A DNA stretch of 64,000 nucleotides, taken from Leptolyngbyaceae cyanobacterium JSC-12 (lineage in GTDB: Bacteria; Cyanobacteriota; Cyanobacteriia; Leptolyngbyales; Leptolyngbyaceae). Every line of letters starts with the position of its first letter. Within the stretch, counting starts at the first letter, position 1. The DNA lies in NCBI GenBank assembly GCA_000309945.1, contig CM001633.1, positions 5,383,174-5,447,173 of the forward strand. The letters run 5' to 3'. The notes beneath the pieces were generated by a model that searched no databases, had not been told where the DNA came from, and saw nothing but the letters and a program-made list of their open reading frames with translations. The position numbers and the translations under genes are program-made. Of the stretch, positions 33,771 to 57,760 are shown piece after piece.

Positions 33771-34556
33771 CTAGTGAGTCGATTGCTCACTTAAGATCGA
33801 CTGAAGTTGTTGTTCTAACGCTTCGATACGATCAAGGAGTGTTCGTATTACCGTTGCTTCAGCATCGGGAACTTGCCCATGTTCTAGAGGACAGGTTTCA
33901 GTATTCGTGCGACAAATATTGCGTCCCGGAACGCCAACTGCTGTGCAATGGGATGGCACTGCCCGTAGCACAATCGAACCAGCCCCAACCCGGGCATAAT
34001 CACCAATCTCAATGTTGCCGAGAATCTTGGCTCCTGCACCAACAACCACATGCTGCCCTAAAGTAGGATGGCGTTTACCTGTTTCTTTCCCTGTGCCACC
34101 TAAGGTTACGCCTTGATAGATTAGACAGTAATCACCAACGATCGCGGTTTCACCAATTACGACACCCATACCGTGATCGATAAAGACGCCTTTGCCAATT
34201 GTGGCACCCGGATGGATTTCAATCCCAGTCAGAAATCGCGCGAAATGGGAAATCAATCGCGGAAGAAAGGTGATCTGACGTTGATATAACCAATGAGCAA
34301 TTCGATGAAATAACAACGCATGAAAACCAGGGTAGCAACATAAGACTTCTAGCCAATGCCGGGCAGCCGGATCGCGATCAAAAATCACTTGAAAGTCTTC
34401 TCGTATGGTTTGCCAGGCTCGCTGGAAATGGTCAACCCTTGAAGACGGGGTACTAGAGTGATCATCGAGCGGTTGTACTGAAAACTCTGGCTGCTGAACC
34501 AGATTTTTCATCAGTGTATTTGGGGGGGTGAGAAGCAGAGTAAAAGGGTGCTGCAT
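33771..34556 (-). CDS. nifP: serine O-acetyltransferase NifP (CysE type)
   Basis: 261 residues. Forms O-acetylserine for cysteine, supplying sulfur for NifS and cluster assembly during diazotrophy. An N-terminal SAT domain ([20 protein letters not shown] near 75-94) is followed by the hexapeptide beta-helix ([39 protein letters not shown]). A second in-frame ATG at 34511 follows a run of seven C at about 34518-34524 in the coding sense, where slippage could occur; either start is possible. First gene of the leftward operon, divergent from nifB. Confidence 0.92.
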
Positions 34557-35075
34557 GGCTCAGAGTAGGAAACCGTGTGCTTGTCTCCTGCTTATATCAG
34601 GCACTTAAACACAACACGGAACCGACAGCCAGCGTCAGAGTTATTGAATTAATAGGACTGTACTCAAACCTCAAACCTAGAACTGGCGGGAATTTAATTT
34701 TTTTATTGGGTTGAGGGGCGAGTATTTCTCATCAAAGGGGTGGGTATTTATAGCAATAGGGACGAGCATTCTGATACTCATCCTCAAGCTCAGATTTCAT
34801 CGGCTTTATCAGGTATTTCAATAGAGCGATGATACTCAAATTCGTTAGTACTCAGATCAGCAATTCTGTATCAAACGACTCTGTTTATAGAGTAATTCTG
34901 TTCATAGTGAACAAACATTAAAAAATTGCGAATACCATTTTCACCTCCGAAAAAGTGCTAATTTAGATACAGAATTGAATTTCGGACAGCACTGGGGAAA
35001 ACTTCTGCATAACTTTCCCCAGTCTTTAATTCCAAAGCTTACTTAACTACCATTTTTGGCTTATTTCAGACTGGA

Positions 35076-35088
35076 GTTGAGTACAGCT
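35076..35088 (+). promoter_or_regulatory. putative CnfR-type operator, copy 1
   Basis: GTTGAGTACAGCT, first of two identical 12-base cores 71 bp apart in the nifB leader. The same core occurs inverted upstream of cnfR (11 of 12 bases). Function as operator is inferred from repetition and position. Confidence 0.55.
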
Positions 35089-35146
35089 TTGGTACCTTGA
35101 AAAATATCTAAAAAGTGCTCTAAATCCCTACTCTATAAGAGTTTGA

Positions 35147-35159
35147 GTTGAGTACAGCA
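35147..35159 (+). promoter_or_regulatory. putative CnfR-type operator, copy 2
   Basis: GTTGAGTACAGCA, identical over 12 bases to copy 1. An ATGAGTATTT (minus strand) follows at 35181-35190 and recurs upstream of cnfR, so the pair of motifs may act together. Confidence 0.55.
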
Positions 35160-35618
35160 AATGCTACTTCCCCACACCATAAATACTCATACCCTATCTC
35201 AAAAATACTGACTCCCTGACCCAGTATTTTTTTTAAAGCCTAGTGTAATCAAGGTTTGAAGGGATGAGTACATCCTAATGATTTCAATAACTCTGATTCT
35301 GGGGCGATCGCGGCAAGGGTTTTGAGTTGGCTGATATAACGTCCATAACGCCAATCACTCAATCTGCCAAAGCAGAAAACAGATTTGATTTTCTTCACAG
35401 GACAGAGAGTGAAAGGAACGACGCAACTGCACCAAACTCTGATGAACGAAGTCACCATGCTACAGCTACAGCATGTACAACAAGTCTTCTATTGGACTCA
35501 TTAAGGTCTCTAGCCTGCATCGGCAGGTTGTCTGTACCAGGTGACTTCAATCATTTTTTGTAAAATGGCGCGATCGTCTTTCCCCGTGGCGATGTCCACC
35601 CAGCCCTGCCGAAATTCA

Positions 35619-37091
35619 ATGACACCACCAACTTCAGGATTGCTTTCCTCCCCGGCAACTCAGCCAGTTTCGGATATTGTGATTACTAAGAATACGGTGA
35701 CTCAAAAAAAGAGCACCGACAGTTGTGGTTGTAGCAGTAACACAAGTGCGGCACCTAGTTTAGATCAGCGCATGCTTGATCGCATTGCCAAACACCCCTG
35801 CTACAGTGAGGAGGCTCATCATCATTACGCTCGAATGCACGTGGCTGTAGCGCCTGCCTGCAATATTCAATGCAATTACTGCAACCGTAAATATGATTGT
35901 GCCAATGAGAGCCGTCCCGGTGTGGTTAGTGAATTGTTAACGCCAGAAGAAGCCGCGCATAAAGTCTTGGTCATTGCCGGTAAGATTCCTCAAATGACTG
36001 TATTGGGGATTGCGGGACCGGGTGATCCTCTGGCAAACCCAGAAAAAACTTTCCGGACTTTCGAACTGATTGCAGACAAAGCACCCGATATTAAACTGTG
36101 TTTGTCTACCAATGGATTAATGTTGCCGGATTATGTTGATCGCATTAAGGCGTTAAATGTTGATCACGTTACCATTACCATTAATATGGTTGACCCTGAA
36201 ATTGGCACCAAGATTTACCCCTGGGTGCATTACCGCCGCCGTCGCTACAAAGGTTTAGAAGCTGCTCGTATTTTGCATGAACGGCAAATGGAGGGTTTAC
36301 AGGCACTCCGGGAAGCAGACATTCTGTGCAAAGTGAATTCCGTGATGATTCCTGGCATCAATGACGAGCATCTTATAGAAGTTGATCGGGTCATCCGAGA
36401 GAATGGAGCCTTTTTGCATAACATCATGCCGCTAATCTCGGCTCCAGAGCATGGCACCCACTTTGGTTTAACAGGACAGCGTGGTCCTACTCCCAAGGAA
36501 CTGAAAGCTTTGCAAGATGCTTGCGCTGACAGCAACATGAAAATGATGCGCCACTGCCGTCAATGTCGTGCTGATGCAGTTGGATTATTGGGCGAGGATC
36601 GCAGCCAGGAATTTACGAAAGAGAAGTTCATGGAAATGCCAGAACAATACGATCTGGAACTGCGGCGGGAAGTCCACGCGGGCATTGAGAAATTCAAAGA
36701 AGAAATTAAACTGGCTAAGGCAAAAGTCAAGCCAAGTGAACGGATTAAGAACAGTCCTAAGATTCTGGTTGCTGTTGCAACAAAGGGTGGCGGGATTGTG
36801 AACCAGCACTTTGGTCATGCGAAGGAATTCCAGATCTTTGAAGTCGATGCTAACGAAGCCAAGTTTGTGGGACATCGCAAAGTTGATCAATATTGCCAGG
36901 GCGGTTATGGCGAAGATGCCACGCTGGAATATGTGATTAAGGCGATCGCTGACTGTAAGGCAGTGCTGGTTTCCAAGGTTGGTGAATGTCCCAAAGCTGA
37001 ACTGAGAGAAGCTGGACTTCATGTGGTTGAAGCTTACGACGTAATCGAAAAAGTGGCAAGGGAGTTTTACAACGAACACATTTGGAAGTAA
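35619..37091 (+). CDS. nifB: nitrogenase cofactor biosynthesis radical SAM protein NifB
   Basis: About 490 residues from ATG 35619; starts at 35592, 35565 and GTG 35541 are open and none has a clear ribosome-binding site. NifB makes NifB-co, the Fe-S core of FeMo-co. The radical SAM cluster motif is CNIQCNYC near residue 84-91, after the conserved [18 protein letters not shown]-terminal NifX/NafY-like domain follows (about 380-480, with [16 protein letters not shown]). It begins the main rightward operon; fdxN follows 14 bp after. Confidence 0.96.
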
Positions 37092-37492: not shown

Positions 37493-38694
37493 GTTCAGTC
37501 ATTTATCTTGATAACAATGCTACAACCAAGGTTGATCCAGACGTTTTAGCAGCAATGCTTCCTTACTTAACAGAGTATTATGGCAACCCCTCCTCGATGC
37601 ACAGTTTTGGGGGGCAAGTGGGGAAAGCTCTGAAACAGGCTCGTGCTCAGGTGGCAAGTTTACTGGGGGCAGAAGACTCTGAGATTGTCTTCACGAGTTG
37701 CGGAACAGAAGGAAACAATACAGCAATTCGTGCTGCCTTGGCTGCTCAACCGGATCGCAAGCACTTGATTACAACTCAAGTTGAACATGCGTGTGTACTC
37801 AATTTGTTCAAGCAGTTAGAGAAACAAGGTTATAGTGTCACGTATCTATCAGTCAACCGCAAAGGACAAGTAGATCTGATGGAATTAGAAGCTGCCATGA
37901 CTGGTAATACTGCCTTAGTTTCAATGATGTATGCCAATAATGAAACAGGTACAGTGTTTCCGGTGGAGCAAGCAGGTGCGATCGCCAAAGAATATGGTGC
38001 AGCATTCCATGTGGATGCAGTTCAGGTGGCTGGTAAATTGCCTCTGAATATGAAAATCAGCACCATTGATTTAATGACGATTTCCGGGCACAAACTTCAT
38101 GCTCCTAAAGGCATTGGAGCGCTGTATGTGCGCCGAGGGTTCCGCTTTCGTCCCTTACTCATTGGTGGACACCAGGAGCGGGGAAGACGTGCCGGAACAG
38201 AGAACGTTGCGGGTATTATTGGATTGGGGAAAGCTGCTGAATTGGCACAGGTTCATCTTGCTGATGTTGCAGCCGAGAAAAAACTGCGCGATCGCCTAGA
38301 AAAGGGCATCCTTACTCGCATTCCCAACTGCGAAGTCAATGGCGATCCTAAAAATCGTTTGCCCAATACCACGAATATTGGCTTCAAATACATTGAAGGG
38401 GAAGCAATCCTTCTATCCTTAGATAAATTCGGTGTGTGTGCTTCTTCCGGCTCTGCTTGTACATCTGGATCGCTCGAGCCTTCTCATGTTTTGCGCGCAA
38501 TGGGGCTACCTTACACCACCTTGCATGGTTCTATCCGATTTAGCCTTTCACGATACACGACCGAAGCCGAAATTGATCGCGTCCTGGAACTTCTCCCTCA
38601 AATCATCGAACGTTTACGCGCGATGTCACCTTTCAATAGTGATGACGCTGAGTGGTTACAAGGTAGAGAAGAAGTTATCGCAGCAACAGCGTGA
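37489..38694 (+). CDS. nifS: cysteine desulfurase NifS
   Basis: 401 residues. PLP enzyme giving sulfur to NifU. The PLP-lysine is in MTISGHKLHAPKGIGALY near residue 203, and the catalytic cysteine in CASSGSACTSGSLEPSHV near residue 324. N-terminal IYLDNNATTKVDP is the usual start. ATGA overlap with fdxN. Full length with no missing key residue. Confidence 0.96.
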   Translation: MSSVIYLDNNATTKVDPDVLAAMLPYLTEYYGNPSSMHSFGGQVGKALKQARAQVASLLGAEDSEIVFTSCGTEGNNTAIRAALAAQPDRKHLITTQVEHACVLNLFKQLEKQGYSVTYLSVNRKGQVDLMELEAAMTGNTALVSMMYANNETGTVFPVEQAGAIAKEYGAAFHVDAVQVAGKLPLNMKISTIDLMTISGHKLHAPKGIGALYVRRGFRFRPLLIGGHQERGRRAGTENVAGIIGLGKAAELAQVHLADVAAEKKLRDRLEKGILTRIPNCEVNGDPKNRLPNTTNIGFKYIEGEAILLSLDKFGVCASSGSACTSGSLEPSHVLRAMGLPYTTLHGSIRFSLSRYTTEAEIDRVLELLPQIIERLRAMSPFNSDDAEWLQGREEVIAATA

Positions 38695-54376: not shown

Positions 54377-55003
54377 CTAGAAATTTTTAGCCGTATGAGT
54401 GATTGGATCAAATTCAAATCGTTTAGAATGATGGGTTTCCCCATATAAGCTGAACGTTACTGTTGGTTCATCCCCAACCGCTTCTACTGAATGAATCGCA
54501 TCTGGCGTGAAGCTGATAATGTCTCCTGGTAATATAATGACTTCGGCTGTTGGCTCAACCCGATTAGGGAACTGCGGATCATCCAATCGCTTCCAAATCG
54601 TGTTTTTCTCTTCTCCTTTCAACACAGCAACAATCCCCCAATTGCCGTGATTATGCACAATGGATCGTGTTCCTGGTAGATACGTCGTGATTTGCACTGT
54701 GAGGGGATAACCAATCTCGTCATACAGCATCATTACCCCACTGCCAGTATCGGGATTCGGTTCTGCGTATTGTGTTTGAATCCAGTAGGAATTGGTGATC
54801 AAACGGCGCACAAGTAACCGTAGCTGAGGGATGCAATCGACTTCAGTGATCGCCGCCTCCAGCACATCTTCCACTTCTGTGAGAAAGCGGTGAAAGCGGT
54901 AAGGAGTACGGAGCAGATCCCATTCTCGTGCTGGTTTGCAAACCTGCCACTGCCCAGCTGCTGTCACCAGCAAATCGCGATACTTCATTGCAGCGTTGAC
55001 CAC
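54377..55003 (-). CDS. cupin / cysteine dioxygenase-like protein
   Basis: 208 residues from GTG 55003, with GAGGAGGA at the end of the upstream gene. The cupin iron-binding motif is IVHNHGNWGIVAVLKGEE (near 116-133) and the later histidine in FTPDAIHSVEAVG. This is the layout of cysteine-dioxygenase-type or related cupins. It could oxidise a thiol or act as a sulfur or oxygen sensor next to nif genes. The substrate is not predictable. ATG 54988 is an alternative start. Confidence 0.78.
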   Translation of the reverse strand: MVNAAMKYRDLLVTAAGQWQVCKPAREWDLLRTPYRFHRFLTEVEDVLEAAITEVDCIPQLRLLVRRLITNSYWIQTQYAEPNPDTGSGVMMLYDEIGYPLTVQITTYLPGTRSIVHNHGNWGIVAVLKGEEKNTIWKRLDDPQFPNRVEPTAEVIILPGDIISFTPDAIHSVEAVGDEPTVTFSLYGETHHSKRFEFDPITHTAKNF

Positions 55004-55008
55004 AGTGG

Positions 55009-55515
55009 TTATTCCTCCTCGTCATCAGGATGAGTCAAAACATGCAAAACAGTGGTTGCCCCAAATTCTCGTTTATCATCCAGTTCGCTCACACGACTTG
55101 TAATAATAGTTGCTGCATCCAGTTCACCCAGGCGTGCCCGAATCAGCCCAGACGCGGCATAGGCATTTAAATATAGGCGAATGACAGGCTCATCTTTCCG
55201 CTGGCTCAAAATTGGTGCTAGCTCATCCCAATCATCAGGGAATGCTTCTAATGCGCTGATTCGCTCCAATACTTGAGTGGCAATTTGTAAGGCAGCCACA
55301 TCATTGTGCTTATAGAAGAAATAGCGATAGGCAGCAACCAGCACATCTAAGGAATGATGCGCGATCGCTAATGCCTGATTGATGTAGAACTGAGATTGTG
55401 CAGTATCCTCCCACGTATTTGCTGCTGCGACCAACAGATGTTTGACCTCTGCTGGCAACTCATACCAGGATAACGTTGGCTCAGGAGTAGGTTTGGGATG
55501 AAAGCAAACTTGCAT
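55009..55515 (-). CDS. TPR-like helical protein of the cnfR-linked operon
   Basis: 168 residues. Helical repeats in the middle (HLLVAAANTWEDTAQSQFYI, ALAIAHHSLDVLVAAYRYFF, DVAALQIATQVLERI) suggest two to three TPR-like hairpins. The end is acidic (HPDDEEE). No catalytic motif. First gene of the leftward operon; its start is about 640 bp from cnfR in the shared control region. I recall similar proteins in other nif clusters but cannot name them. Confidence 0.72.
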   Translation of the reverse strand: MQVCFHPKPTPEPTLSWYELPAEVKHLLVAAANTWEDTAQSQFYINQALAIAHHSLDVLVAAYRYFFYKHNDVAALQIATQVLERISALEAFPDDWDELAPILSQRKDEPVIRLYLNAYAASGLIRARLGELDAATIITSRVSELDDKREFGATTVLHVLTHPDDEEE

Positions 55516-56152
55516 GGGCTAGAAAATATATGTTAAGGGATGGACAACGAGTAGAGCGGTTTCTACTAATCTATTCTCTGCTTATATCAGATGATTTCTC
55601 GGCAATAGCATCAAATTTTTCCCTCAGTTTCACCGACTAATTAAGCTGTACTCAGCTCCTGTAGCTCTTGTATTACCAACGATTTCAGGAATATAAGAGG
55701 GTTCGGCATGAGTATTTTTCTGGTTCAGAAATGAGTTTTTCCGGGAGAGGGGGCTAGTATTTTGCACCACTAAAATGAGTGGCTAGATCTCAAGCAGCAG
55801 CAATGAGTAACGCTAGCTGACATCATTCTAAACTCAAAAATCAGTATAATAAGTTATGAATTGATAACATCTAACTTGTAACAAATAGCACAAAATAGCA
55901 GCAAAAATGCTTACATAGAACACTTCAAATATCAATATTAAAAAAATATTTAATCGCTCAGGTTGAACAAAATAGGTAGGGACTATTACTTATTATTGAA
56001 CACTAAATACATCCAACTCGAAAACTCGGAGTTTCTTTAAGAAAAACCGCTGGTTTAGGCACGAGTAAGGATCGATTTACCTTGGTTAAGGCGTATTGAT
56101 ATTCATGTTGAATGGCGACCAGTTAAGTTTGTAATCAACCATTGAAAATTAT
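55516..56152. promoter_or_regulatory. divergent control region of cnfR and the cupin operon
   Basis: 637 bp without a gene. Contains GCTGTACTCAGC at 55645-55656 (inverse of GCTGAGTACAGC), ATGAGTATTT at 55708-55717, GCTAGTATTTT near 55753 and ATGAGTAAC near 55804. The first two match motifs of the nifP-nifB region. Very AT-rich at 55850-56050. It must contain promoters in both directions. Confidence 0.65.
55645..55656 (-). promoter_or_regulatory. putative CnfR-type operator upstream of cnfR
   Basis: On the minus strand GCTGAGTACAGC, matching GTTGAGTACAGC of the nifB leader at 11 of 12 bases. Located about 130 bp from the cupin operon start and 500 bp from cnfR, so it more likely serves the cupin operon. 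Confidence 0.5.
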
Positions 56153-57760
56153 ATGGCGTATACCATTACAAACCGCTGCACACAGTGTGGAGATTGCGTT
56201 CCCCAATGCCCAAAGGATGCAATTAAGCAGGAAGGAGGGGAATATTGGATCGATCCCATGTTATGCGATGACTGTAAAGATTACGCCCCTAAGCCGCAAT
56301 GCGTTACAGTTTGCCCAATCGATTTGCCACCCATGCCCTTGCAAGCAAAGAAAGGGCGTTGCAAAACGGCTAACCGATCTCATGCCAGCCCTAATCTATT
56401 TGCGAATGGCAAAACAAACCCATTTGCATCAGCGATTGTTGTCTGGGAAGCATGTAATGTCTTAGCCCAGCGACAATCATTGCCGTGGAAGATAGATGAG
56501 ACAGGACGGCTTTGCTATGAGCGACAGGTAAAAGGCGGACGGGGTACGATCGCTTTTCATCTTGCCGATTTACCTACTTCGGAACCTCTCACCATTCTGG
56601 ATAACAAAGCAGCTCAGGCTGAACTTGCCAGTTGGGATGTGCGGGCAGCCTGTCTCCATTTAATTTATGCCGCTCATGCTATTGCACTGGAGCAACCCTG
56701 GGAACAGGAATTTGTAATCACAGATCAGCAAATTGAACGCTATTTAGGATTAGACAAACGCAAAGACCTGAATAAACTGGCTAAACTAACTTTAATTAAA
56801 GATCTTGCTCAACAGCCTTGCAAATTACAACTGGATATTGATTGGTTTCAACAGGGGCGAGTACAGGCATTTTCACTTAAACAAAGTCGTCTCTGGAATC
56901 TTTTGGAGGTACAACATCATTTTCAAGAAGATGAGTTAGGCTGTAAACACTTAACTGGACTCACGTTTAGAATTCAACCTGGTGATTGGTCAAAATATTT
57001 TCTCAATCAACGCGGAGCTAAGCAAGGAACTGCTTTTTATCAATACAGCACACTACCTAAATCTCTTCTTTTAACTATCACGAGTATTTGGCAGCAACAT
57101 GAGGGAGCATCCCGTATGCTGCTATGGTTATTGTTCAAAACAAAAATGGGGAATGAGCAACGTCTAACGGTTCCAACCCTGATGCGCATAGCCTATGGCG
57201 AGGCAAAACTGTTGCAGGCTGCATCTCGCCGAGAGGAACGTAAACGTTTGCTGCGAACGTTTGAGAGCGATCTAGAAGCATTAAATCACTATGGGCTAAA
57301 ACCGGTTTTTGATCCAGTTACTTATCCACCAGTGATTCAACCACTCTGGGCAAAGTTAGCAGACTTACCAGACGATGCTGAAGCTGCCCTGGAGTTTTGG
57401 ATGAAGGATGGTAGTAGCCGCGATCGCCTAACTGATGCTGCGCCACGTGATAAGTGGAATCAATTGATGCAAGCTCGATTATTATGTTTTGAGTTGCCAG
57501 AAGGTTGGGAAACTCAATCTCCTAAAGCAGCCCAAAAGAAGTTCCGGAAGGCTCAACGGAGAGATGCCTCTCATGCGCGATCGCCGCTTTCAAGAGAGCA
57601 AATCATTGCAGCCAGAAAAAGCTTGCAGTTAAGCCAGAGAGATTTAGCAAACCATGTAGGTAAAAGCCAGAGTTGGGTTCGCGATATCGAAAGCGGTCGT
57701 CTTCAGGTAAGTTTTAAGGATCAACAAATTCTCTTAAAAGTGTTGGGTGTAAATTTGTGA
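56153..57760 (+). CDS. cnfR: CnfR, Fe-S transcription activator of nif genes
   Basis: 535 residues. Activates nif genes under low oxygen in L. boryana; PatB is the heterocyst counterpart and ChlR a paralogue. N-terminal ferredoxin-like part has two cluster motifs: CTQCGDCVPQCPKDAI at 8-23 and CDDCKDYAPKPQCVTVCP near 40-57. The large middle region has no known catalytic motif. The C-terminal helix-turn-helix is visible as LQLSQRDLANHVGKSQSWVR with DIESGRLQVS (about 486-520). The oxygen-labile clusters would sense oxygen. Good ATG; isolated gene. Confidence 0.93.
   Translation: MAYTITNRCTQCGDCVPQCPKDAIKQEGGEYWIDPMLCDDCKDYAPKPQCVTVCPIDLPPMPLQAKKGRCKTANRSHASPNLFANGKTNPFASAIVVWEACNVLAQRQSLPWKIDETGRLCYERQVKGGRGTIAFHLADLPTSEPLTILDNKAAQAELASWDVRAACLHLIYAAHAIALEQPWEQEFVITDQQIERYLGLDKRKDLNKLAKLTLIKDLAQQPCKLQLDIDWFQQGRVQAFSLKQSRLWNLLEVQHHFQEDELGCKHLTGLTFRIQPGDWSKYFLNQRGAKQGTAFYQYSTLPKSLLLTITSIWQQHEGASRMLLWLLFKTKMGNEQRLTVPTLMRIAYGEAKLLQAASRREERKRLLRTFESDLEALNHYGLKPVFDPVTYPPVIQPLWAKLADLPDDAEAALEFWMKDGSSRDRLTDAAPRDKWNQLMQARLLCFELPEGWETQSPKAAQKKFRKAQRRDASHARSPLSREQIIAARKSLQLSQRDLANHVGKSQSWVRDIESGRLQVSFKDQQILLKVLGVNL

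Follow-up and report, generated by a model that had tools for sequence, protein, structure and literature searches.

In cyanobacteria, synthesis of the oxygen-sensitive nitrogenase is enabled by a master switch, the activator CnfR. Here we analyze the spacer between the divergent genes nifP and nifB in Leptolyngbyaceae cyanobacterium JSC-12, located in a stretch of 64,000 nucleotides of its genome (hereafter the window, to which all positions refer). Judged from its sequence, the spacer very probably (we estimate about 90%) carries the CnfR-responsive promoter element of cyanobacteria twice, in mirror-image arrangement, with one copy serving nifB and the other nifP. This reading is built on the anatomy, the statistics and the conservation of the element and on its co-occurrence with nifB and cnfR, all of which were observed directly and are presented below.

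Two mirror-image promoter elements between nifP and nifB

The spacer is bordered on the left by nifP (33771-34556, minus strand), which encodes a serine O-acetyltransferase of the CysE/NifP type (TIGR01172 cysE, 253.8 bits, over the cut-off), and on the right by the divergent nifB (35541-37091, plus strand; TIGR01290, 674 bits, well above the curated cut-off), leaving a 984-bp gap between the two open reading frames. An in-frame ATG at 35565 is likelier to be the start of nifB than the first codon of its open reading frame. The two promoters share one order of elements: TGAGTA, approximately 72 bp, TGAGTA, approximately 116 bp, TGAGTA, 67 bp and finally the extended -10 sequence TGATATAA, with the nifB set oriented forward and the nifP set as its mirror image.

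On the nifB side the distal site 1 (35078-35085, an exact word), site 2 (35149-35156) and the proximal site 3 (35265-35272), all on the plus strand, read TGAGTACA and are separated by 71 and 116 bp, and site 3 is followed by TCCTAATGATTTCAATAA and, 67 bp away, by TGATATAA at 35332-35339 (plus strand). The nifP-side sites lie on the minus strand with their 5' ends at 34854, 34780 and 34666 and distances of 74 and 114 bp; these are the distal site 1 (TGAGTACT, 34847-34854), site 2 (TGAGTATC, 34773-34780) and the proximal site 3 (TGAGTACA followed by CCTATTAATTCAATAA, 34659-34666), again with TGATATAA 67 bp from site 3 (34592-34599, minus strand). The TGAGTACA core is identical at sites 1, 2 and 3. 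When the sequence was read at the extended -10 promoters, no TTGACA-like hexamer was found at the expected -35 position. The predicted transcription starts are near 35346 (plus strand) on the nifB side and near 34585 (minus strand) on the nifP side. The symmetry of the two elements is also evident from a 43-nt inverted repeat (34629-34671 and 35260-35302) and from a second one of 21 nt spanning both -10 regions.

The stretch between sites 2 and 3 holds as many as three AAATACT-N4-CCC repeats, whose period of 22 bp recurs across species. On the nifB side (plus strand) they are found 10, 32 and 54 bp from site 2, as AAATGCT at 35159-35165, as AAATACTCATACC at 35181-35187, overlapping a minus-strand TGAGTAT at 35183, and as AAATACTGACTCCCTGACCC at 35203-35209. 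On the nifP side (minus strand) the first copy is degenerate, and the others, an AAATACC repeat (AAATACCCACCCC, 34743-34749) and an AAATACT repeat (AAATACTCGCCCC, 34721-34727), are located 31 and 53 bp from site 2. In addition, a conserved GGnTTTnAG box is found ahead of both site 2 and site 3, and a TAATnAATTCAATAA block comes after site 3.

The presumed activator is encoded in the same cluster as the spacer by a full-length cnfR (56153-57760, plus strand). According to domain matches, residues 1-57 of the protein form a ferredoxin module and residues 483-535 an XRE helix-turn-helix; its orthologues in nif-bearing relatives are 59-78% identical. The strain therefore combines an element upstream of nifB and of the divergent nifP, three TGAGTA(T/C)A-type motifs per promoter and an extended -10 without a -35 with a cnfR gene carrying both the ferredoxin module and the C-terminal XRE domain. 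As a separate observation, five relatives devoid of nifB (G033, G018, G019, G031 and G017; loci L160-L164) encode proteins that share approximately 39% identity with CnfR across the body and the XRE domain; in place of the ferredoxin module, these proteins have a basic tail or a different N-terminal part.

Motif count and enrichment

The initial annotation of this DNA had listed at least nine TGAGTAY-like words on both strands of the spacer, including two identical cores 71 bp apart. Eight of the words are exact, at 34660(-), 34774(-), 34832(-), 34848(-), 35078(+), 35149(+), 35183(-) and 35265(+), whereas the ninth, at about 34720, reads CGAGTAT (CGAGTATTT) and has one mismatch. We rejected the latter as a TGAGTA site; it is a AAATACTCG repeat, the third AAATACTC-N-CCCC copy on the nifP side. 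The pair of identical cores, GTTGAGTACAGC, is present with the reported distance of 71 bp and is found nowhere else in the entire 5.53-Mb genome.

It is clear that the words are enriched, as the initial annotation had expected. Shuffled by dinucleotides, the 1,062 bp at 34557-35618 gave a mean of 0.26 and a maximum of 4 TGAGTAY words, and none of 5000 shuffles reached the 8 observed; outside the spacer, no 1,062-bp stretch of the window contains more than two. TACTCA/TGAGTA is also the top over-represented 6-mer of the spacer compared with the remaining window. The TGAGTAY words within genes (e.g. 31833, 37795 and 40754) and a lone one before nifU (38712) were rejected as background, because approximately 11 are expected per window and none of them has a match to our sequence-only core model, R1, together with a promoter; the sole R1 match at such words (37792-37811) scored 4.0 bits with an E-value of 2.5. 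By comparison, R1 gave 59.6 bits at 34587-34678 and 56.1 bits at 35246-35341 around the two proximal sites.

A further claim, that the copies exceed the needs of a simple promoter, did not hold. The surplus is mostly accounted for, because each of the two promoters has its standard three sites and because the AAATACT class includes the words at 35183 and 34720. Only the minus-strand TGAGTAT at 34832-34838, an exact word between nifP-side sites 1 and 2, is extra, and no counterpart of it at equal spacing was seen in the site lists of relatives.

Conservation and genome-wide specificity

The comparison of spacing drew on the window's own locus, on 13 further nifB loci from its family and on 56 named cyanobacterial loci, and trios of sites were collected with a site 2-3 range of 111-132 bp. 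The exact trio occurs twice in the genome, both times inside the nifP-nifB spacer. It is present in 86 of the 390 genomes of the class, and a reversed control pattern was near zero class-wide, except in a few genomes, mainly ones with simple repeats. All 57 exact trios that precede nifB or lie on the nifP side have TGnTATAA 66-69 bp past site 3, and this sequence is invariant in the aligned elements (46/46).

The conservation in orthologous spacers that the initial annotation had made decisive for its reading was borne out. In the same search, R1 had a forward match upstream of nifB at 53 of the 55 cyanobacterial loci with upstream DNA versus 0 of 24 proteobacterial loci, and many of these matches come from loci outside the training set, e.g. 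L040, L064, L070, L076, L081 and L084. The match is missing in L073 and L087, weak in L088 and 2.6 kb away in L074, and L075 has almost no upstream DNA. Within the family, R1 was found in all 14 genomes with a genuine nifB versus 1 of 28 others. Between distant cyanobacteria the sequence separating the sites diverges, and spacing and orientation are kept.

The sole R1-positive family genome without a nifB match (G025) has a split cnfR (L208), and in another genome without nifB (G014) a CnfR-like gene is reduced to its C-terminal half (L159); these may be remnants of a former ability to fix nitrogen, or the result of gaps in the assemblies. Several Nostocales-like genomes (L122-L131; e.g. G364, G358 and G337) carry three exact trios, two of them divergent and 1-10 kb apart and the third elsewhere. 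Strong conservation in distant cyanobacteria (L003-L016 and L033-L071) was also seen in the nifB leader at about 35340-35365, where the first transcribed bases (ACGCCAATCACTCAAC) lie approximately 200 nt before the start codon.

Spacing of the sites

The distance between sites 2 and 3 falls into two classes. Among 57 elements the short class spanned 114-118 bp and the long class 124-129 bp, values of 119-123 bp did not occur, and in an overlapping class-wide list of 112 trios the total length was 191-198 bp in 81 cases and 202-209 bp in 31, with none at 199-201 bp. The two classes thus differ by approximately one helical turn. At three loci (L036, L056 and L057) the element is of the long class at nifB and of the short class on the other side, and each of these genomes has a single full CnfR match. 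It follows that one activator accepts both classes, and this favors a rotational constraint over one on the absolute distance. Due to kinship among the genomes, the counts of the two classes are not independent. The most rigid distance is that from site 3 to the -10 sequence, at 66-69 bp.

A putative third promoter beside cnfR

A CnfR-type core promoter was also found between cnfR and orf168 (55579-55672, minus strand), where TGAGTACAGCTTAATTAG (site 55648-55654, 5' end at 55654) is followed after 65 bp by the extended -10 TGATATAAGCAG (55582-55589). It points away from cnfR and toward the orf168-cupin operon (54377-55515, minus strand), with a predicted transcription start upstream of 55515, and it has a single site-3 core and AAATACT-CC repeats upstream (region 55540-55850), with no exact TGAGTA trio. 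Its R1 score of 14.7 bits corresponds to an E-value of 0.0011 in the window and, as the third-ranking match in the whole genome, of 0.089, which is weak alone. Core matches are found at the same place in three other genomes (G002, G003 and G009), beside an orf168 that is 68-76% identical, and a cupin homologue (L169) has a site-3 match just upstream. We consider it probable that CnfR targets this promoter, whose element is reduced. A core promoter of the CnfR type is also found at the second cnfR paralogue of G003 (L202, G003:C23, 5627-6562, minus strand), where it likewise faces away from the paralogue, toward a different gene of 311 amino acids.

Comparison with known CnfR promoters

In Leptolyngbya boryana, the nifB/nifP element reportedly has nine motifs, located 76 bp upstream of both start sites, of which six are said to be essential, and it is said to be conserved in diazotrophic cyanobacteria. 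CnfR activates both divergent nifB/nifP promoters of L. boryana in Synechocystis (PMC5943405). That paper describes CnfR motifs I-IX in the nifB promoter (citing Tsujimoto et al. 2016) and a 484-bp nifB promoter fragment covering all nine, compared with the 487 bp between site 1 and the ATG at 35565 here. The element of JSC-12 resembles that of L. boryana in its location in a divergent nifP-nifB spacer, in having the activator gene in the cluster and in its composite, multi-motif build, and differs from it in the extra TGAGTAT at 34832.

In Anabaena variabilis, nifB1 and nifB2 each have three upstream copies of a conserved TGAGTATA motif (PMC4284476). Deletion of one or two such sites reduced nifB1 expression by 50% or 75%, respectively, and the nifB1 promoter is of the extended -10 type without a -35 (PMC8510180). 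The core word, the number of copies, the promoter type and the dependence on CnfR in those promoters (PMC4284476, PMC8510180) are all similar to what is seen or predicted here. The distance between sites 2 and 3 at nifB is approximately 126-128 bp in heterocyst-forming species, whereas it is 116 bp (nifB) and 114 bp (nifP) here, that is, one helical turn shorter. A literature search for TGAGTAC together with nif gave chance matches only. The two classes of site 2-3 spacing and the third promoter at orf168-cupin may not have been reported before.

Proposed mechanism and alternative explanations

The suggestion of the initial annotation that the TGAGTA repeats are CnfR operators is well supported by their conservation at fixed spacing, by the lack of matches at proteobacterial nifB loci, by their co-occurrence with nifB and a full-length CnfR and by the literature, in which this motif is linked to CnfR. 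In the mechanism that we propose, CnfR, with its ferredoxin module and XRE domain, would become active under low oxygen, and several CnfR molecules would then occupy one face of the DNA at the TGAGTA sites and perhaps also at the AAATACT repeats, which are related to them. The bound complex would bring RNA polymerase to a promoter without a -35, one that would be unable to fire alone. Binding at each site, multimer formation, the one-face geometry and function in this strain are the parts of this scheme that we infer. More specifically, a rule of rotational phase could go along with a higher-order complex of CnfR and RNA polymerase on one face over approximately 260 bp, each divergent promoter having its own copy, and with a one-site core driving orf168-cupin as a third CnfR target; for this combined proposal we would put the odds somewhat below even.

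Several points weigh against the CnfR reading and should be kept in mind. Some diazotroph loci, e.g. L003 and L005, have no exact copy of one site (site 2), so not every TGAGTA word can be essential. The nine to ten or so conserved blocks per promoter found here correspond to the published motifs I-IX of L. boryana by number and position only. CnfR binding and promoter activity in this strain are deduced from the DNA, and co-occurrence by itself cannot separate CnfR from another nif-linked regulator.

It is conceivable, if rather unlikely, that the true CnfR operator consists of only site 3, the TAATnAATTCAATAA block and the extended -10, and that another factor makes use of sites 1 and 2 and the AAATACT repeats, either in DNA bending or as a second regulator. 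Such a division would fit the third promoter beside cnfR, where a site-3 core is found without an exact trio, as well as the rigid distance of 66-69 bp between site 3 and the -10 sequence. It is difficult to combine with the TGAGTACA core being common to all three sites and with the halving of expression by deletion of a single conserved site upstream of nifB1 (PMC8510180).

Less probable still, and in our opinion improbable, is that TGAGTA marks the operators of a different nif-linked regulator or an upstream signal specific to a sigma factor, with CnfR acting indirectly. The evidence presented here is all co-occurrence and conservation, and the sites have been described in the literature as "thought to be" CnfR binding sites (PMC8510180), both of which leave room for such a factor; as for NtcA, the canonical GTAN8TAC was not found in the spacer, where the only near-match is TGTTCATAGTGAACAA at 34899. 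CnfR itself, on the other hand, has an XRE DNA-binding domain. Finally, several related repeats do occur in the spacer, but the notion that the excess of words has no function and stems from local base composition or from the expansion of repeats has a negligible chance of being correct, given a count never reached in dinucleotide shuffles, only two trios genome-wide, and spacing and orientation that are kept across distant cyanobacteria while the intervening sequence diverges.

Implications

The nifP-nifB element of JSC-12 is clearly a clean new example of the already known cyanobacterial CnfR switch. CnfR promoters are used in attempts at moving nitrogen fixation into other photosynthetic hosts. 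The conserved layout, with three sites, phased repeats and a rigid distance between site 3 and the -10 sequence, gives a searchable signature of CnfR targets in any genome and also a geometry that can be tested: if the rule of rotational phase is true, shifting site 3 by 5 bp would abolish activation, whereas a shift of 10-11 bp would leave it intact.
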